Below, one piece after another: positions 10,101 to 26,200 of a DNA stretch of 64,000 bases. The DNA is taken from assembly GCF_037975245.1 (NCBI RefSeq), contig NC_092569.1:19647501-19711500 (forward strand), given 5' to 3'. This stretch comes from Apostichopus japonicus (lineage: Eukaryota > Echinodermata > Holothuroidea > Aspidochirotida > Stichopodidae). Under the pieces are notes generated by a model that was given only the letters and a program-made list of their open reading frames with translations, was not told where the DNA came from and ran no database searches. The position numbers and the translations under genes were made by a program. Position 1 is the first letter of the stretch. Each line of letters opens with the position of its first letter.

Positions 10101-13100
10101 GGCAAAAGGTAGAACGATCTTGAAATGTCACAGTTCCTTCTTACGTATAAATACTTTTATACAAAGTGATGTCTTTGTGGAGTAGTAAAACTCAGACTCG
10201 GAACATATTCCGTAATTTATAGAAATTGTCAACCAAACACTAAACCACTGCTTGAAGTTTATTAAGCCAAATTCGTTATGTTTCGTTACAGAGTTCATAA
10301 TAAGAATAGCTAATTTTTAAGCTTTTTTTTCCTTATTCTCATAGGCTATGTAAATAACTACATTGAATGGTGTCCAACAAATAAAACCTACAATGAGTGT
10401 CAACTTTGCGAGGCTACCTGTGCTGATCCCGATAGTTGTGTCAATACTTCCTGCAAAGGATCTCATTCGTGTGTCTGTCCTGAAGGATTTTTGATGAACG
10501 GTGATAACTGCATTAGAATAGAGGACTGCGGATGTTACATCGAAAGTGAAACAGATGGAGAGAAAGGTGTATTGTTAAAAGTAAGTAATTTCTTTCAGAT
10601 TGTGATATATATTATCAATAGTGTAAACAATTTAAATGATGCTTTAAAAAACTGGGGTTAGTTCAAAAACTGGGGTTAGTTCAAAAACTGGGGATCGATT
10701 TGCATTTGCCTCTGACCCCTTGCATTTGCCTCTGACCCCTTGCAACCAGCACACTCTTCAACTTTGGATATACGCAATTTTGCCAGTAAAGTTGGGAAAA
10801 CTGATGCATCTTGTGTGTGTTTGCAGTATTTCATCAAATCACTACTTGAAGAAACCTTGTCAGATCCCTAAAGTTACTTATGAGAAATATAACGATTTTC
10901 TACTTTCTAGGAAGGAGGACTTAACGTCTCTCCAAACTGTGACAAGAAATGTTCTTGTACGGATAATCATCTTTCGTGTGACGATAGTTATCAATGCGAT
11001 ACGAACGCAGATTGTGAAGAAAGGAACGGTCTGTTACAATGTTACTGTCCGCCAGGATATAGCGGAGACGGCACACAGTGTAGGCCTACAGGCGGCACAG
11101 CCCCTTCTGACTGTAAAGAACTGTACAACAATGGCGAGAAAACAAGTGGCGTCTATGAAATCAAACCTACATATTGGTCTGACTCTCCGTTTGAAGTTTA
11201 CTGTAACATGTCTGACGGGGGAGGCTGGACGGTAAGTGTGACAGTTTTCCTTAAACCAGTGATCCGCAGCTTTTATAGGCCGACGACACACAAGTCATCC
11301 ATGAGGACCAAACCACGACCCACCAGAGCCCAAACCCTCATAGCAGACTTTCAAAATACATTAAGCTACTTGAATTGTGAATATGATGTCCCAAAAATAA
11401 CTTGAAGATAATCAATCTCCATCCCACCTTCTATTTGATACCCGTAAGCTAGTTTAAAAAAACATTGCCGTATGTAGAACACGGGGATAGGCTACATATT
11501 TGACGAAGAATGTTGAATTCCTCATTTATTGCCACTGTGAGCGCATTCCAAAGAGGAAGAATTCTCTGTGTAATGTAAGTACTTTCAGGAATTTGTTTTT
11601 AGAAACTTCATAACATTTTAACTATTGTTTGTTCCTTTGGATAAGGGTTGATGTGTTATTTATTATTATTTTTTCAACAGGCAATAGTTATGACATCAAA
11701 ATATTAGTGCTGGCAAACACTTCCAAATGACTATAATTATGTATGTATGTTCCTTTACGTTGATTGTTTTAGGTATTCCAGCGTCGCGTTGATGATTCAA
11801 AAGACTTTTATCTTTATTGGGATGACTACAAGATTGGCTTTGGTGATCGAAGTCGGAACTTCTGGCTCGGAAATGAAAAGATATATAGCTTGACGAACCA
11901 AAGACAATATGAACTCCGGATCGACTTTGTTAACTACGACGGTGCTCCTTACTACGCCAAATACGAGTTCTTTCGTATCAGTGACGAGAATGATAACTTC
12001 AGGCTAGATGTTGGAAATTATTCTGACGGAGATGCAGGTAGGTTATTATCTCCCGATTAATCAATCCCATCATGTTATTTATGTCAGTTTGACATCATAT
12101 ATCATGTTAATTCAAGAACGAAGTTTGTATAAAGAAGTATGTAGTATTAGTTATATGATATAATTCACTATCCAATCACTTACTAGTTTATACACAAATG
12201 TTTTGTCTTTGCTGAAAATAACGAGATTAACTCGACGGCATATCCTGGTGACTTACTGTGGTAATAGCTTGTTGATCCAAGGAAGGTGCATATATTTAGT
12301 AGGTAGAAATCTCTGGACAAATAGCTGGACCTTTGGACCTACGAACACTCAAAATTAAGAAACTTCAGTTAGTAACATATAAACCCGCCATACCATACAG
12401 TATCTAATTATTTCTACACTTCTTTGCATAAGGCACACATAGGGAAAAGATTAGTTATTTATATTCGACAAGATAGACCGAATACTAGCAGTAATTGTTA
12501 ATGTAATCACACATGTAATGTAACGACAAAGTACTTATACAAATCGATTACTCAAAAGACAAATATGGAACTATCACAGGGTAAGATAGTTATGGACCCT
12601 ACACAAATTTCCACGCATACAAACACACCCACGGGCGTGCGCACAAACACAAACTTAAATATGCATATAGTACAATTGCACGAGTAGCTCGTGTTAGAGG
12701 GTACGATAACAGATCTTGCCCCTGGAGTTGGTTTTTAAGTGGTAGGCTAACAATTCTAGAAATGAACGATTCGTTAAAGTTGATCTCTATTGATTGATTT
12801 ATTTACTCCTTCCTCTATCAAATTTATGTTAGCAATGATTGATGTGAGCAAAGATATCACATTTATTTATACCGCCAGCACGCTAGATAAAAGTAGCGAT
12901 GATGAGATTGTAGGTAATGTAAAAAAAAGGGGGAGCTTCAAGAAGCTTTCAGCATAAATTAAATATATTCTTAACTATTACATAACAACAGTAAACCAAA
13001 TACACCGTAGCTGTTCTTGTAAAGGAGAGCCGGATCACTTGTAATATTGCACTGAAATAGAACTGTTCTGCATGACAATTGTCCTATATTTCCAGTTTCT

Positions 13101-14247: not shown

Positions 14248-15113
14248 ACACGTTAATCACCTTGTCACCTTGTGCCGTCGAGTCGTGTTCGACCCCTGGT
14301 GATGACCATGACTTTAATCCTCCAATCCTGCCGGCTCCTGGTTGCCCCTCGAAGTCTATCCAGAGTCAACCCAGTCGCCTGCTTGACACCATCCATCCAT
14401 CGTTGACGTGGCCTGCCCCTCTTTCGTGATCCATCACCCATTCCCACCATTAATGATTTTTCCAGAGAGTCGTCAGCACGCATGATATGACCGAAAAAAT
14501 TTAGTTGTTGCCTCAGGATCTGTGCTTCCAGTGGAAGTGAGGGTTTTATTTGTTCCAAAATCGAGATGTTTGTTCTATGTGCAGTCCAAGGGACTCTCAA
14601 TAGCCTGCGCCAGCACCATAATTCAAAACTGTCTTTTCTTTCCCTCATTCCCTTTGTTATTGTCCATGATTCACTCCCATAGAGCACAACTGGGAAAACT
14701 AGTACTTTCATCAGTTGACTCTTCGTTAATAATGAGATTGCTTTGTCCCTCCAGATCTTGTTTAACCCCGTCACAGCAGCTCTTCCAAGAGCTAACCGTC
14801 TCAAAATCTCCCCCTTACAGGTACCATTGTCATCAATTCTAGAACCGAGAAAGTTAAAGTCGTGTACTATTTCAACTTTGTTTCCACCCAAAATAATTTC
14901 GTCCAGCTCCTCTGTGCACATAACCTTGGTCTTCTTTAGGTTCAGGTGTAGCCCAGCCTGAGTGCTATGTGCCTGCACACGTTCCATCAGATTAAGGAGG
15001 TCTTCTTTGCTTTCTGCGAGCAGTGTGGTGTCATCAGCATATCTGAGGTTGTTGACTCTTCTGCCACCTATCTTCACCCCTAGCTCTACATTGTCTAGAT
15101 TGTACACGTTAAT
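14248..15113 (-). mobile_element. 5'-truncated non-LTR retrotransposon (RTE-like) with 10-bp TSD
   Basis: The direct repeat ACACGTTAAT at 14248-14257 and 15104-15113 is a target duplication around an 846-bp body (14258-15103). On the minus strand the body encodes about 280 uninterrupted residues of the C-terminal part of a reverse transcriptase. It contains NNLRYADDTTLL with the catalytic YADD (the first two-thirds of the RT and the endonuclease are missing), then NLKKTK, LGSRID and YGSESWT. A typical end follows: RRLLRV, FGHIMRAD, GRPRQRWMDG. The stop at 14265-14267 is followed by two short ACAAGGTG repeats, the kind of short-repeat 3' tail seen in RTE-clade elements. The open frame suggests a fairly young insertion that was dead on arrival. 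Confidence 0.85.
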
Positions 15114-15400
15114 AGTAGTTTATAAATACGCCTAACTCTAACATGTTTATAGTCGATTTTTTTTTTTTAAATACGCCTAACCCTAACATGTTTATATATG
15201 TTTTTAAGTAAGCATAACCCTAACATATTTAGAGTAGTTATAAAACACACCTTACCCTATTATGTTTTATAAATACGCCTTACACTAACATCTTAAAAAT
15301 ACGCCTAGCCCTAACATGTTTTCAAATACGCCTAACCATACTTTTTTTAAATAGCCGTACCCGATCATGTGTTTAACCATAACATGTTTTCAGCGAATGT
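15114..15400. repeat. Degenerate tandem array around CGCCTAACCCTAACATGTTT
   Basis: Seven to eight degraded units carry variants of AATACGCCTAACCCTAACATGTTT, with spacing that varies between about 25 and 50 bases. CCTAACCCTAAC resembles two telomere repeats, but the units are too degenerate and too long to be a telomere tract. The array abuts the LINE target duplication at 15113, so the LINE landed at its edge. Confidence 0.6.
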
Positions 15401-17207: not shown

Positions 17208-20200
17208 ATGGCCGCTCCAGCCAAACCATGGGAGAAAATGGGTCAGAACAACAGAGAGTGTTGTCAACAAGGTGGAAGCAACATGTAAGTGCCTAACCTC
17301 GAAGTCCTTGGCCAACGTTAGCCTAACAAAAGTAACAGCAACTCAGGCAGGCCCAATACAAATATATTGTATCAATTTGTATGCCAAGCCTAGGCTGTAT
17401 ACTATTTAGGCCTAGGATTTAACTTTAAGTGATGCGTGACTTAGTCCCACTGTAGACCTACTGTAAGACTGCCTGATTGTAATTCTACCAGGCCTTGTGA
17501 TTTCTACTTGTCCTGATAGAAAAACAGTTTTGGAATGAAACAGCCGTAATATATATACTTAAAACTGGCACAAAGTAAGTAGGCCTAGTAGTAGCATGGG
17601 CTTACCAGTCAAAACGTCCCTTTACCAAAACGTCCCTGTACCAAAACGTCCCCGCTTTTGGTCAAATCGTCCCCGTTGGTCAAAACGTCCCCGTTGGTCA
17701 AAACGCCCCCGTAAGTCAAAACGTACCTGTCTATCACATTCATTCACAGTTGTGAATATATATTAATTTTAAGTTATAATTTGGCTAAGTAATCGGCATA
17801 CAAGTTGGATTACAGTCGCTAAATAAATCATGAAGGACTATATCGTTTAATTATATTTGGTATGAAAAAGGTATACGCTATATGTTTTTCAGTGAATTAA
17901 CGAATTAAGGAAATCAAAAAATATTATACAAGAGGAATTAAAAAAGAATTTGGATGCGTATACTTTACAATATATATATCTATATAATATTTTAAATTGA
18001 GTGAAATCACTTATCGTTTATTTTTACGAAGTAAAATTTTGTCACGGGTACGTGCCCCTGTTGATATTTGACATTTTGAAGTATAGAATATATCGTTCGA
18101 TTACCTTTAGTATGGTAATGTTTTACTAAAAAATTAAACTCAAAAATGTTTCCGCCCTCATAACAGTCAATTCCCATTCCTAAAAACTGTGTTTTCAACC
18201 TAAACTATACTTATCCTTACTCTTTGATTTGAACTAATAACATCCACACTTGCATTCCAACTGATTATAAAAGCGGGGACGTTTTGACTCACGGGGACGT
18301 TTTGACTGCGGGGACGTTTTGGTAAAAAGCGGGGACGTTTTGGTCTAAAAAAAACGGGGACGTTTTGGTAAGGGGACGTTTTGACTGGATACCGTAGCAT
18401 GGTGGGCTCATAATTGACGCACTGGATTTGATCAACGATATACATCAAGGAATAATCCAAATCACTCAACTGTACGTGTTTTTCATATGTGTTGTTCCTC
18501 AGAAATGTTATGCTTTCAAAATATTTAAGGTTCTGTGCTTTTGCACCATACAATTGAGCAGAATTTGACCACAAAATGTCTGCCGTGTTAAGTTCTTTCA
18601 TACCCCTAAATTGACACATTCGTTGTAAAGCTAACTGTAGTGTAGGCCTTAGTATACATCCATTGACTTAAGATGCTGTTTGCTGTGCTCTGAGCCTCTT
18701 AGCTCAGACAGGTCAGGTCCCAGAGAGTAGTGTTATCATATTGAGGTAATTTTGGTTATTTTAGGGAGTAAGGTTTCCAAATGCCCAAAAAACGTGCAAA
18801 ACTGGTTGGAGGGTGTTAAAAGCTTAAAAAATACCACAATTTGGTCAGCAAATAGATGAAATGGATTCAAACTCATGAAATGTGTCATTCTGCTTGACTG
18901 CAAAAAGTTTAGGTGGCCTGCTGTATTGTTGCTAGTAATAATTGAAGGTGCATCAATTACGGGGGTGCGTTAATTATGAAGCCTTTACTATAGTAGTTGT
19001 ATGTATGTATTGTATATTTCATCCTCCTGCAAGCAGGAACTCGCGAAGAAGCCTCATTGGCTTATCAAAGCCGCAAGCTGACTGAAGTCAGTCTGTAGTA
19101 ATTAGTATCTGCATATATTCTAACGACAGGCTACAGTACTGTATGCTGTACTGTACATAAGACTAGGCATAGTAACTGTTCTACAGACCACAGTGCTAAT
19201 GCATTTTCTGGTTATAAGGTAGGCCTCAGGCGGTCACACTAATTAGCGTCAACAGGCCGATTTCACGACAACTCACGACAACTCAAGACAACAAGTTTAA
19301 AATACCACCAAATACAATTGATGTTATCAGAGTATATCTGGAAACACTGTTAAAACTGACTGGAACCAGCGTGCATACATATTTTTCACAGGAAAAAATG
19401 TTTTTGTCGTAAATATCGCCAACTTTTTCCAAACTTTGAATTGAATGACTTGATGCTATTGCGCTTGCGCAATGCCATCGGACCGAACCATTATAATATG
19501 GGTGGGTTTGTGCTAGGTTTGCGAACTGCCTTGTGTGCAGTGTCGGTAAGGTATGTTGACGCAGTAATAAAGCACCAAAGTACTGTAGGGCAGGTCCAAG
19601 CTATTGTATCCCTAGAAGCCAAATTTCAAACTTTACTGAAGCACCCTAAATGTGGTGTCATGTTAAAGCTGAATTATTGAAGTTTCAGATTTTCATTTTT
19701 TTTTTTAATTGTTTTGCCTATTCGAACAATTACAGCCGGCTAATTTGCATAAATTCAAATTGCAGCGTGACGTACGGGACATTTGGAATCCTATTCCCCT
19801 GCCAGCAATATGAACTTATTGAATATAAGTTATGTGGGACATGATACACCCTTCCTTCCAATAATTTTGACATATTATGTTTGGGGGTTCATCAATTAAA
19901 TTAGCTAATTAGCTAGTGTCCAAATACTGATGTCCCGTACGTCACAATTTTCAGCACTTTTTTTCAAGTTTTGATATGGACGAACAATTTTTTTTCAGTG
20001 ATATTCTGTAAAGTTCTAATTAAGAACATTGTTCAACAAAATCCATCCCAAAAAAATTGAAAAAATATTCACAGCAAATCTAATTATCAAAATTAAAAAT
20101 GTGACGTACGGGACAAAATGTGACGTACGGGACATAGTGTGGGGGAAACCCTGTATTTATACATAATAAACATGCATGGGCTCCAATGGGGACCTCTACT

Positions 20201-23200
20201 GGAAACCTTCCAATGCTTACAAATTTATTTTGTTGAAAGATGGTAGTTGCAACTTATAATCCCTACATGCCTGAAGAGCACAACATGGCTTCAAATAAAC
20301 CATTGACTGATGACCACCAACAGCCCAGGTGTTGTTCAATATACTATCGGGAAGTCAATTGTGTGTGTGTGTGGGATACAGAATCATCTACAATGCTATT
20401 CAACATTGACATTGAATGAGGACAACTTCAAGAATGTTGAGTTTGCATTTCAACATTTTGTAGGCCTATTGTGAAGTGTGACTATCATGACTGTGCAACA
20501 ATGTTCTTGTGTCCTGAACTTAGATAGTAGACATTGAGATTTTTAGTTACAAGTATAGAGTTTTGCTCGCCCAATTTTTGCAGAGGACAAACACTCATGA
20601 GTTTGTTCAATAATCAGTATTAGGTCTATAGAGTTTTCTTTGTTGTACTAGTTTCATAGATGGACATTATGTGGACGTTACTGTGGACATTTTGATATGT
20701 TTTGAATGGGATGGATCATATTTCAACTTGAGGGTCAATAGTGGGGAGTATGATACAGTGTTGTACAGTATATACCGGAAACAGTTTTGCACCAAAACTT
20801 TGCATCTTGAATCATTTGTGGTCTAACAAAGCTAGAATTGATGTTATGAGTATTTGGTCTGGTAACCAGTATTAGGTCTATAGAGTTTTCTTTGTTGTAC
20901 TAGTTTCATAGATGGACATTACGTGGACGTTACTGTGGACATTTTGGTATGTTTTGAATGGGATGGATCATATTTCAACTTCAGGGTCATAGTGGGGAGT
21001 ATGATACAGTGATGTACAGTATATACCGGAAACAGTTTTGCACCAAAACTTGCATCGTGAATCATTTGTGGTCTAACAAAGCTAGAATTGATGTTATGAG
21101 TATTTGGTCTGGTAACCAGTATTAGGTCTATAGAGTTTTCTTTGTTGTACTAGTTTCATAGATGGACATTATGTGGACGTTACTGTGGACATTTTGGTAG
21201 AATATGATGGATCATATTTCAACTTGAGGGTCAATAGTGGGGAGTATGATACTGTGTTGTACAGTATATACCGAAACAGTTTTGCATCAAAACTTTGCAT
21301 CTTGAATCATTTGTGGTCTAACAAAGCTAGAATTGATGTTATGAGTATTTGGTCTGGTAACCAGTATTAGGTCTATAGAGTTTTCTTTGTTGTACTAGTT
21401 TCATAGATGGACATTATGTGGATGTTACTGTGGACATTTTGGTATGTTTTGAATGGGATGGATCATATTTCAACTTCAGGGTCAATAGTAGGGAGTATGA
21501 TACAGTGTTGTACAGTATATACCGAGACAGTTTTGCACCAAAACTTGCATCTTGGATCATTTGTGGTCTAACAAAGCTAAAAATGATGTTATGAGTATTT
21601 GATGAATGTGTAGAGTAGATTTATACTTTATGCATTCCATGTTTTATGTAGTGGAATGATCTCACAAGTACAGTCACTGCTCTTTTCGATCCCCGAAAGA
21701 AGGAAATATGGCATTAAATTACAAATGACATTGTTCTGGCATATCCAAATTAATGTTTTTATGTAGCTTGTTATGGTATATTCAGGAATAAAAATATGAG
21801 TTTTCATAGTCAATTTTTATTTGGACAAATTGTCCCGTACGTCACATGTCCCGTACGTCACAGGACAATTTTCATTTGTGTAATCACTGAACTGGAATGG
21901 CTTCATATTTTTTTCTAATATGTTACAGCTTAGCCCTTGGAAGGTTAGGCTATTCACTAGTTATAACAGCTTGATCACTGCCCTCCTAATTTCAGAGCGA
22001 TTTCAGCTTTGCTCTTTAGCAAAAAAAACACAAAATTCTCTGGTCCCGTACGTCACACTGTACATTAATTAGGATGGGACCTAATTAAAGCAAGTGTAGG
22101 AAATCTTCATAAGTTTGTAATAAAGTAGCAGCAATAACAAATATGAAAACCTGAAAAAGTTTCTGGAAAATAGATTTTTTATAACTTTTAGACACATTTA
22201 AGTCTCTGAAATGTCCCGTACGTCACAGTGCAAATAGCTTGGACCTGCCCTGTATGGTGAATGAACTCCAAATCAAATTATTTAATGTTTTAAAAATAAT
22301 GAATATTTCTTATTGTGATTATCAACTTTACAGAGTTGCTTACCATCATTTTGCCTGGTTTTATTTTGTGGGCACCATTCTCGATTGAAAATTTGCACTT
22401 ACCTGTAGTGTAATGGTTCGGTCAATGTCATTGCGCAAGCGCAATAGCATCACGTCGTCCAATTCAACGTTAGAAAAAAGTTGGCGATTTTTACGAAAAA
22501 AACATTTTTTCCCGTGAAAAATACAGTATGTATGCACGCTGGTTCCAGTCAGTTTTAAACGTGTTTCCAGATATACTCTGATAACATCAATTGTATTTGA
22601 TGGGATTTTAAACTTGTTGTCTTGAGTTGTCGTGAAATCGGCCTGTTGACGCTAATTAGTGTGACCCGCCTCAGGTGCCCACTGCTGTAAATGTTATCAA
22701 AATGTGGAAATATTTCCTTCATGATTAATACTGTAAATAGGGCATTAATACTATGTAGGTCTAAGCCTTTTCCATAAGAGAAAATTAATCACAGGTTTTA
22801 TTATTTTTATAATTCTCCAGTGCAGTTGGTAGAAACTTCAATTCAACATGGAAACAAAGACTCACACTATAGCATGGCCTATACAACAACTTGGCATAAA
22901 TCAGTAGAAACCTTCATGAAAATGAAGGGGTTTGACAAAGTACAACCTTCCTTAAAGAATGAACAGTATTTAACTTCTCAAATTAATGTTGTTCCATGAA
23001 GAAATTGATTATTAAGTATATATTTGCATTTGAATTATAATATCTATCAATTTGATCACAAGAAACATGTGCAGCTTCTCTATATGTACTTACATAAGAA
23101 TAAAGCTAAGAAACAACTTTGAAAAGACCGAGGAAAATCTTGGCTAGAAACTTTCTTTTTACAACTAATAAAAAATATTACAGAAGATGTTTCACAAGAT

Positions 23201-26200
23201 ATACTATATTGCATTTTTTTTGGAGTAAATAAATTGGAAGCTACAGTACGTGTACTGTACGTATGGGAAATTATGAACAAACCTGGCAAAGAAATTTGGG
23301 GTTAGAACAGGGTCCAACCCAGTGTCCTCAAGAATACAAGTCCTATTCCCTACCACAATTTATTACCTGTTGTGGATTTTTGTTGTTCAATGCAAAATAT
23401 TCAATATTATGATCTCGTTGTGTAGATCTCGTTGTCTCGCGCAGCTTGATCTTTAAGGTTGAAATGAACCAGGCTGTAACTGAGTGATTGATGTAAACTT
23501 ATTCATCCAAGGAAGTTGTTACAATACTTGTGCTGTAACATGCTGGTCATTGATTTTTTTTCGTGTATCATTCAACAGAGGGATATCAAACTTTCAGGCA
23601 ATGGACAGAGGTTCTCTTCCAATTCCCGGAGCCGGTACCTTCGGTCCTGCCTTGCCGTCAAGGAATGGCATAGCTACCCAGACGGGGGGACCATTTTATG
23701 GAACATCGAACAACAGATTCGGAGGTTACAGTAGTGGTTATAACTCCTACGGCTACGGCTCTGGCTCTCCCTACAGTAGTAACTTTGGTAGCATGTATTC
23801 ACCCTATGGCTACAGCAGTAATATGTATGGTAGCAGGTACGGAAATGGACACGGGGGCTACAATGAATTTGGCGGCCCCGAAGGCTACAGTCGGTTTCTG
23901 CAGCAAGCCGAGGAGAATAGCCGTCCGGCCTTTCAGTCCATCGAGAGCATCGTTCAAGCATTCGCCTCTGTCAGCATGATGCTCGACTCCACGTTTCAAA
24001 CTGTCCACAACTGCTTTCGAGCGGTGTTAGGGGTGGCTGACCATTTCTCCAGACTGAAAGTGAACATGGCTAGGATACTGTCAGCGCTGACAATATTTAG
24101 GTTTCTCAGATATACCTATCACAGACTTCTAGAAATGTTAAGGCTCAGACAATCTGGCTTTGCAGAGGAAGTATGGAAGGAAGCTGCAAACAATGCTGTG
24201 TCTATACCGGGCGCCCCCAATGGACCCGGAGGTAAAGCATCGCCCTCCTGGCCCATCTTCATGTTCTTTGCGGTGGTGGTCGGTGGACCCTACGTCATAT
24301 GGAAACTGCTGTGCAATGGAGATGGAGCTAGTCTAGGTAAAGCAGTATTATATTGTATTTGCACCATTTGTGTTCCTAAGTACTGTAGTTTAATTGACAC
24401 AGTCATAAATCACATGGTAACAGTTGGTAAGAAATTACTATAAACTTGTATTTTCCATAATATTTGGTTGTAACCCCGTATGCAGCATTGTGATTGAGCT
24501 AGTGTACAGTATGTGGATAAGTAAGTGGATATTCCATAACTCTAACTTAGGAAATAACTATACAAATTACTTAAATACAGTATGCATTGCTATCCTTGTA
24601 AATCCTTTTCAAGTTTCAATCTATGGGATGTAAGGATGTTATAACATTGTTTCCTTTGAATTAGATTGTCAGCTGTTTTCATTCGGCTGTATGCTGTGTT
24701 TACTGTTAAATTACGCACTCAGGGACAGATGCTTAAAACAATAGCATGTGTACAGCAGTAGACTCATTACCCTTCCTCTATCTATCCCATCATCATTCTC
24801 CTTGCAAAGTGCAAAGTTCACTCTGATACGAATTCAGCTTGTTGTTTACAAGGACAGTTATTCACATTACTGTACAGTCCTACAGGCATACAGTGGTTAC
24901 AGTATGCTGCATATGGTGCAGTGTATATAATGCATTGCAGACTTGTACTGTACAGCGGCTACATGTAAATACTACATGTGTTGCATATGTTACTTTACAG
25001 TGCAGACAATCACATGTACAGTATGCTGAATATGGTGCAGTGCAATAGGTTAGAATGCATTGCAGACTTGTACTGTACATCGGTTACATGTAAATACTAC
25101 ATGTGTTGCATATGTTACTTTACAGTGCAGACAATCACATGTACAGTAACTACAGTATGCTGTACATTGTACAGTCACAGTGATATACAATAGATTGCAT
25201 TGCAGACTTTTACTGTACAGCAGCTACAGTACATATTATACTAAATGTGTTGTATACAATACATGTTACTTTACAGTGCAGACAATCACATGTACAGTAA
25301 CTACAGTATGCTGCACATGGTACAGTCACAGTGATATACAATAGAATGCATTGCAGACTTGTACTGTACAGCAGCTACAGGGGTACAGTACATACTGTAT
25401 TATAACTAAATGTGTTGTATATATGTTACTGTACAGTGCAGACAAGGATTTCCTGAAAAACATGTACTTATTTTCATTAGTTACAACTATGTTGGCCAGT
25501 TTCATAACAAACACTAATTTACCAACATTCATAATGTCACCAATACTCTTTATACAGTACGTCAGGGTCCATTTTGAAATGTATTATTCTAAGTTAAATT
25601 GCAATCAACCATTAACCCAGACAGTTGGTATTATTATTGTACTGTACAGTTGGCTGCTTCAGACTTGGTATGCAATTTTCTCAAAATTCTTCACCAAAGA
25701 TTTACAGTGTATAACAAAAGAAGAGCAATGAACAGGTTAAATAAGTTAAGATTTACCATCTGTGTAACTTATGCCATGTAGCACTGTGCCTGCACAATAA
25801 ATTTATAAGCAATATTGATGAAGAAAAGTGATTTTTTATCCTGATCAGTAATCAATAACATAAATATGAGTATATGGTTACAACGAAATGTTGCGCTCTC
25901 AGACTCTGACAAATTCAGCCTTAACTTAAATTAATACTCAGACAACTGCAAGGAAACCTTTCATTCCCTTCAAAGCATGATTAAATAAAGTTCTACAACT
26001 GATCACGGTACAGTATTTTGTTTGCATCCAGTGCACCTTGCCTATGGAACTCACTTCCAGAACATGTAAAAATGTGCAATACTGTGAACAGTTTCAAATC
26101 AGCTCTCAAAGCATACTGTATCTTTTCACAAAAGCATATGCTATAATTGTTATCATTTTGTTAAGCGCTACGAGAATTATTTCATAGTTTGTTTGCCGCT

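Follow-up and report, generated by a model that had tools for sequence, protein, structure and literature searches.

The window analysed here is the whole 64-kb stretch of DNA from Apostichopus japonicus (contig NC_092569.1, positions 19,647,501 to 19,711,500), and it contains, at 19588-22250, an element that had been described in a first-pass annotation of the sequence as a transposon with what looked like an array of transposase-binding sites. This element belongs to a family of about 130 copies of a cut-and-paste DNA transposon, characterized by inverted repeats of 18 bp, by target duplications that are mostly of 4 bp and by eight fixed sites of a short motif, GTGACGTACGGGAC (hereafter, the 14-mer). 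The family is non-autonomous, and the eight subterminal sites, which in their full form read TGTGACGTACGGGACA, are probably bound in trans by a transposase or by a transposon-encoded partner. The array is real and evidently functional, while the element is new but of an ordinary kind and the surprise is moderate.

The eight copies of the 14-mer previously annotated were all exact, and their coordinates and strands were correct (Table 1). They are the only exact copies in the window, every one of them lies within the element, and a search across the 64 kb allowing up to 2 mismatches did not reveal any further copies. The assertion that far fewer than one copy would occur by chance was also borne out, since 0.11 copies are expected and eight were reached in none of 100 shuffles. 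The termini of the element are exact 18-bp inverted repeats, for which the window holds no other match even when 3 mismatches are allowed, and TGTA adjoins the element on both sides, in agreement with the boundaries proposed before. Likewise, the mostly inward orientation held for seven of the eight sites, that at 19932 alone pointing outward, and the two pairs said to be spaced 16-19 bp apart had periods of 19 bp (left) and 16 bp (right). Counted from the left end, the sites of that side begin at 179, 344, 513, and 532 bp, while those of the right side lie 24, 194, 389, and 405 bp inside their end. The two ends of the element are not mirror images, with four sites each but at different distances.

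Genome-wide counts were made in the source assembly, which comprises 671,581,487 bases in 35 contigs, the window being on C9. The exact 14-mer was present at 765 places, compared with 1 for its reversed control, and the end sequence gave 261 matches at up to 2 mismatches (204 of them exact), compared with 0 for the reversed control. The termini of the family begin GGGCAGGTCC, the end string being also given as GGGCAGGTCCAAGC. Among the 14-mer matches listed (100 of the 765), all 100 were near family ends, either between listed ends or within about 2.1 kb of them as judged by eye; in these matches the site is confined to the family and is not equally dense in unrelated DNA. Twenty copies were fetched from listed end pairs, including the two longest then visible, and were compared together with the window copy (21 elements). 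All 20 terminated at the same bases as the window element. Perfect 4-bp target duplications were present in 16 of the 21 elements, while 3 of the 4 bases agreed in two and 0 to 2 in the other three; the duplicated sequences were varied and mostly AT-rich. Copy lengths ranged from 1.8 to 6.5 kb, and this variation was mainly due to tandem units of about 250 bp (1 to 6 counted) and to later inserts. With respect to the sites, 167 of the 168 expected were found at up to 3 mismatches, 139 being exact, when chance would provide about 0.2 matches per element at 3 mismatches. Moreover, three other right ends rounded to 100% identity with that of the window over 471 bp, and therefore the family has moved recently. 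Open frames did not exceed 78 amino acids (aa) in the window element or 130 aa in any of the 21 elements. The copies thus share their inverted repeats and a duplication of fixed length and have no transposase of their own, as corresponds to a non-autonomous terminal inverted repeat (TIR) element. Altogether, the annotation of an inner transposon bounded by these repeats is strongly supported by the genome-wide ends and the copies.

In the consensus ends, the 14-mer is preceded by T in all eight sites and followed by A in seven of them, so that the full site is the 16-mer TGTGACGTACGGGACA. Read from its sequence, this 16-mer matches its own reverse complement at 12 of 16 bases and is a quasi-palindrome, TGTnnCGTACGnnACA, an indication of a pair of TGTnnCGT half-sites and of a protein that acts as a dimer; the pair TGTnnCGT/ACGnnACA would be bound by a dimer. 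In addition, 16 of the 18 CpGs of the consensus ends are within the sites, at two CpGs per site. Beyond the sites, 17 CpGs are present in the window element versus 73.5 expected, the corresponding values for the whole window being 1,073 versus 2,114. Given this concentration of CpGs in the sites, methylation may gate binding. In this regard, methylation near subterminal repeats is described in soybean as accompanying the loss of mobility (PMC4219821, in excerpt).

Two older subfamily elements, L027 and L029, differ from the family by about 36% at ordinary positions. Recognizable sites were found at the corresponding places for all eight sites in L027 and for seven of eight in L029, in which the remaining one is a gap plus unlike letters. 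At non-CpG positions, the identity of L027 was 89.6% in the 16-mers and 64.5% in the remaining sequence (Fisher p = 1e-7); for L029 these figures were 86.5% and 63.0% (p = 4e-6), the TIRs having 91.7%. When all columns were counted, CpGs and gaps included, and eight windows were drawn at random 20,000 times, no draw reached the 111/128 identical letters of L027, and 0.4% reached the 95/128 of L029. Of a further 12 relatives, which are older still, six (L086, L087, L090, L091, L093, and L094) contained more site-like words, taken at 5 mismatches or fewer and with near-palindromic words scored on both strands, than any of 20 permuted motifs.

It must be considered that the exactness of the 14-mer is weak proof in a young family, and therefore inherited and private changes were separated. 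For this selection test, 36 left-end and 27 right-end segments, including those of the window, were used, each with a coverage of 93% or more relative to the ends of the window element. Beforehand, 15 loci had been excluded for being divergent, foreign or short, and others failed the coverage rule. Non-CpG variants common to at least two copies occurred in 2 of 2,483 site cells versus 520 of 29,308 cells elsewhere, while non-CpG singletons occurred in 19 and 311 of these cells, respectively. By non-CpG column, shared variants were present in 1 of 80 site columns versus 106 of 919 other columns (Fisher p = 0.002), and singletons in 16 of 80 versus 272 of 919 (p = 0.07). Since singletons are near the background and shared variants are depleted in the sites, mutations in the sites arise after insertion and the copies that reproduce are without them. 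There has been strong selection on the sites in the lineages that kept moving, and the sites look like functional cis-elements and not like a by-product of youth. The inverted repeats had zero substitutions, but the copies were selected by them and this biased figure was not used.

These results bear directly on the explanation that the identity of the sites is due to the youth of the element or to spread by duplication, without any function. The copies are indeed young, as indicated by their right ends of about 100% identity, and in the old relative L087 the site has been tandemly expanded to a 19-bp array. Nevertheless, subfamilies that are about 36% different elsewhere have retained the corresponding sites (eight in L027 and seven in L029), and inherited variants avoid the non-CpG site columns whereas private ones do so far less, which leaves a functionless array as a very improbable explanation.

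A different possibility is that a host factor, CRE/bZIP-like or other, binds the sites and opens chromatin or drives transcription, the transposon keeping the sites for this purpose. TGACGT is contained in the site, and such a role could also serve a non-autonomous element, for instance by maintaining accessibility. However, conservation extends beyond TGACGT to the whole 16-mer with half-sites on both sides, the sites accompany the inverted repeats at either end of the element, and the window element has no frame above 78 aa that could be driven. Furthermore, the exact 14-mer outside the family is at about the level of chance; in the context class that was searched, with G or C as the second following base, there were 4 places, of which 2 were in the family. 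The host-transcription role that the first-pass annotation had contemplated is consequently disfavored, also because the sites are kept in elements without a transposase gene, and we consider it unlikely.

The array bound by a trans-acting protein is the best explanation given that none of the copies read has its own transposase, and the upkeep of the sites in elements whose longest frame is 130 aa cannot be for transposase expression. The closest parallel that is understood is the En/Spm system, in which excision depends in cis on subterminal repeats to which TNPA binds, and derivatives with deletions are mobile while these repeats are kept (PMC2613891, in excerpt). This parallel, together with the evidence on the sites, which are placed at both ends along with the inverted repeats, leads us to take the array as a putative loading platform for the transposase or its partner. 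According to this proposal, which is the most likely mechanism, the transposase or transposon-encoded partner, made elsewhere, would bind the sites, probably as a dimer on each half-site pair; once loaded on both ends, the bound protein would bring them together, and cleavage at the GGGC termini would then be followed by a 4-bp staggered insertion. Cytosine methylation of the site CpGs could turn off binding and hence mobility. The nature of the ligand, its dimeric binding and the gating by methylation are inferred. With respect to the earlier annotation of a transposase-binding array, then, a functional array at both ends is strongly supported, while the transposase is a candidate for the protein that binds it.

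The sites could instead bind a transposon-encoded regulator or repressor, or protect the ends from silencing, and not form a synaptic complex. The protein that binds the subterminal repeats of En/Spm is also described as a suppressor and as a positive and negative regulator (PMC2613891, in excerpt). Selection on the sites of elements without an encoded transposase indicates, on the contrary, a direct cis role in movement; it must be noted that both roles are compatible and not exclusive. As a replacement for the loading of a transposase or partner, we judge the regulatory role slightly less likely than the host factor. A bolder version of the loading proposal, which is doubtful although less so than either of these two, is that the family represents a DNA transposon lineage not yet described, whose transposase would load on an array of dimeric, CpG-bearing sites and whose binding would be directly gated by host methylation as an on/off switch kept by selection. 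It starts from the fact that the ends kept hardly any CpG outside the sites, so that host methylation would directly gate transposase binding.

An autonomous relative with a transposase between the same ends was absent among the ends read. Ends that matched exactly and were followed by a base other than T numbered 96, namely 95 left ends of the family and the right end of L029, and there were 78 exact 25-base matches to the right end. A properly sided right end was found within 15 kb of 75 of the 95 left ends, at 1.7-3.5 kb in 72 cases (one right end being used twice) and farther in 3. The other 20 left ends were unpaired, and 18 of these were read at least in part. In a set of 20 ends, 13 kept to the non-autonomous element over the whole length read, whereas 7 departed from it or were rearranged. 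The longest frame in 27 unpaired- or long-looking loci read in part was 168 aa, flanks included, and no interior was shared among eight departing loci (L022, L024, L026, L043, L044, L048, L053, and L060). An open frame of 165 aa was observed in L023. The long spans of L021 (4.05 kb), L002 (5.4 kb), L001 (6.45 kb), and L028 (6.6 kb) were due to extra repeats and inserts, with longest frames of 119, 117, 130, and 136 aa, respectively, and no transposase of the family was present in the longer spans. In the 13.2-kb locus G000:C14:11920628-11933793 (L030 and L031), both ends are present together with an open frame of 817 aa, and seven of the eight sites differ from the 14-mer at no more than 3 positions. 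It was rejected as the autonomous partner because, as read from the junctions, this frame is inside an element with CACTG...CAGTG ends and a TG duplication of 2 bp, nested in an ordinary non-autonomous copy; a 40%-identical relative likewise starts with CACTG. A degenerate pattern of the left end gave three places in the genome, the third being a truncated copy with frames of up to 118 aa. Finally, a search with L029 yielded older relatives, of which the 12 fetched had frames of up to 193 aa; the five frames of at least 150 aa were a hAT C-terminal piece, kinase-like sequence (at two loci), a repeat and one without an assigned identity. The autonomous partner is absent from the assembly, has diverged at its ends or was missed.

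The window element lies within a longer repeat whose arms, of about 240 bp, are 90-98% complementary and which ends near GGTCACACTAATTAGCG. The flanks of this outer repeat suggest a 7-8 bp duplication around CCTCAGG. A search with the joined flanks of the element revealed many copies of the outer repeat without it in the genome, and three alignments show the empty site. Another 23 outer-repeat copies were read, and the target had no TGTA in any of them; CACCAAAGTATGGTG was exact in 20 of them and had point variants in 3.

Several points weigh against the account given above and must be considered together. Neither an autonomous copy nor a binding protein was found among the ends and copies read, 54 of the 72 ordinary pairs not having been read inside. 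A perfect 4-bp duplication is missing from 5 of the 21 copies, and the target of the window copy (19580-19587) has an unexplained extra CTGTA that is absent in all 23 other copies of the outer repeat. As the duplication of the family is of 4 bp, that target must have borne five extra bases, which predated or accompanied the insertion; they may be the excision footprint of an earlier insertion or a private variant. Regarding selection, shared variants are not independent events, so that the cell counts overstate the significance and the column test is fairer. When CpG columns were included, the depletion in the sites was not significant (9 columns with shared variants versus a mean of 13.7, with 13.7% of random draws as low), because the CpGs of the sites mutate readily; CpG transitions accounted for 16 of the 33 site mismatches in the 21 elements. 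Similarly, only 25 of 32 (L027) and 18 of 30 (L029) site CpG letters were kept between subfamilies. The test on divergent subfamilies is based on two elements, and 6 of the 12 older relatives do not exceed all 20 permuted motifs.

Table 1. Features of the transposon and of its insertion site in the window.
Feature	Position	Strand	Remarks
Outer repeat, left arm (host of insertion)	19232..19478	+	Empty site seen in other copies
Left 4-bp flanking duplication TGTA	19584..19587	.	4-bp target duplications in 16/21 copies; target-site anomaly
Left terminal inverted repeat GGGCAGGTCCAAGCTATT	19588..19605	+	261 matches in the genome with 2 mismatches or fewer
Site 1, GTGACGTACGGGAC	19767..19780	+	Preceding base C here; consensus T
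Site 2	19932..19945	-	Sole outward-pointing site
Site 3, first of left pair	20101..20114	+	19-bp period; homologous place is a 19-bp array in L087
Site 4, second of left pair	20120..20133	+	
Four tandem units, about 245-252 bp each	20611..21601	+	1 to 6 units among 21 copies
Site 5, first of right pair	21832..21845	-	16-bp period
Site 6, second of right pair	21848..21861	-	
Site 7	22043..22056	-	3' neighbor C, not A
Site 8	22213..22226	-	24 bp inside right end
Right terminal inverted repeat	22233..22250	-	
Right 4-bp flanking duplication TGTA	22251..22254	.	
Outer repeat, right arm (host of insertion)	22425..22666	-	Empty site seen in other copies

Other features were observed in the window and in the loci read. 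About 1.2 kb from the element, an exon-like frame at 23484-24443 has a Peroxin-13 N-terminal domain (PF04088, E 2.4e-45), and the nested repeats may be in or beside a Peroxin-13 gene. The window also contains a reverse transcriptase fragment (PF00078) at 14268-15119(-) and a fibrinogen-C/EGF frame (PF00147, PF12947) at 10911-11402(+). The nested CACTA-type element, which extends for 10.7 kb from about position 777 of L030 to L031 (G000:C14), has CACTGTAAAAA ends, a TG duplication and the 817-aa frame P0001. This frame has C2H2-like fingers, with C(2)C and H(4)H motifs recognized by eye; its comparison with Pfam and NCBIfam gave no family above the cut-off, the match to DUF4218 being below the threshold. 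A first look at the source genome gave 362 CACTA candidates, and many of the 55 that were scored have uninterrupted frames of about 900 aa. This is an expanded animal CACTA group, intact by appearance and outside the coverage of Pfam. Among the older relatives, the site has been amplified at L087:1630-1778, where an array of about eight units of 19 bp occupies the position of the left pair. The hAT C-terminal dimerization fragment (PF05699) of L096:483-1061(-) starts some 0.3 kb inward from an old relative's right end and is probably an unrelated neighbor or insert. The old relatives L093 and L094 (G000:C16, near 23.78 and 23.90 Mb) adjoin a kinase-like frame, with a weak Pkinase match in L093, which we take to resemble a polo-like kinase; its presence twice in a similar setting points to a possibly duplicated gene.

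The best-known subterminal arrays of transposase-binding sites are those of plant elements and of a small number of elements from animals and yeast. With its recent activity, its eight near-identical sites, its about 130 copies and its older subfamilies, this animal family is a natural record of the bases that the transposition machinery requires. In addition, the comparison of inherited and private mutations is applicable to any young non-autonomous family and reveals cis-requirements even when no active enzyme is at hand. With the CpGs confined to the sites, the gating of transposition by methylation is a testable idea, and the family is a lead toward its transposase in a farmed echinoderm.

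Regarding known systems, hAT elements have 8-bp duplications and a subterminal motif unlike that of the family, the target of Kolobok is TTAA, and Academ elements have an XPG-type nuclease protein. None of the 16 perfect duplications of the family is TTAA, and therefore Kolobok was rejected, as was piggyBac, which also targets TTAA (PMC5199201, in excerpt). Ginger1 and Ginger2 were discarded since the TG...CA termini of their definition (PMC10741241, in excerpt) are absent. Chapaev (CMC) elements resemble the family in their 3- to 4-bp duplications but have invariable CAC...GTG termini, versus GGGC...GCCC in the family (PMC4079192, in excerpt), and with this requirement both Chapaev and EnSpm/CACTA were rejected (PMC4079192, PMC2613891, in excerpt). 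Sola elements share the 4-bp duplication, and their ends are very variable, with inverted repeats of 11 to 1124 bp (PMC10741241, in excerpt); in contrast, no Sola transposase is tied to the ends of the family, and the likeness is by description. The AcademX branch of Academ has a 3- or 4-bp duplication, a length that fits the family (PMC10045372, in excerpt). Both Sola and AcademX are thus compatible by the length of the duplication, as compared by description only, and the family is filed under neither. When the site and end sequences were sought in open-access full text, only the 12-letter end string appeared among the matches listed, in texts on unrelated subjects. A point of likeness to Ac/Ds (hAT) is that non-autonomous elements of that system have short inverted repeats and some subterminal repeats in common with an autonomous partner (PMC3260210, in excerpt). 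CACTA-type elements of the source genome have CACTG ends, with a 2-bp TG duplication in the one in which both ends were read. The family resembles En/Spm (CACTA) and its deletion derivatives in that a short repeated motif, 12-20 bp in length, is grouped asymmetrically near the two ends and internally to the inverted repeats, in the retention of the motif by non-autonomous copies and in a link, putative in the family, to methylation (PMC2613891, PMC4219821, in excerpt), while the family differs from En/Spm in its GGGCAGG termini versus CACTA/CACTG, its duplications of 4 versus 3 bp and its motif.

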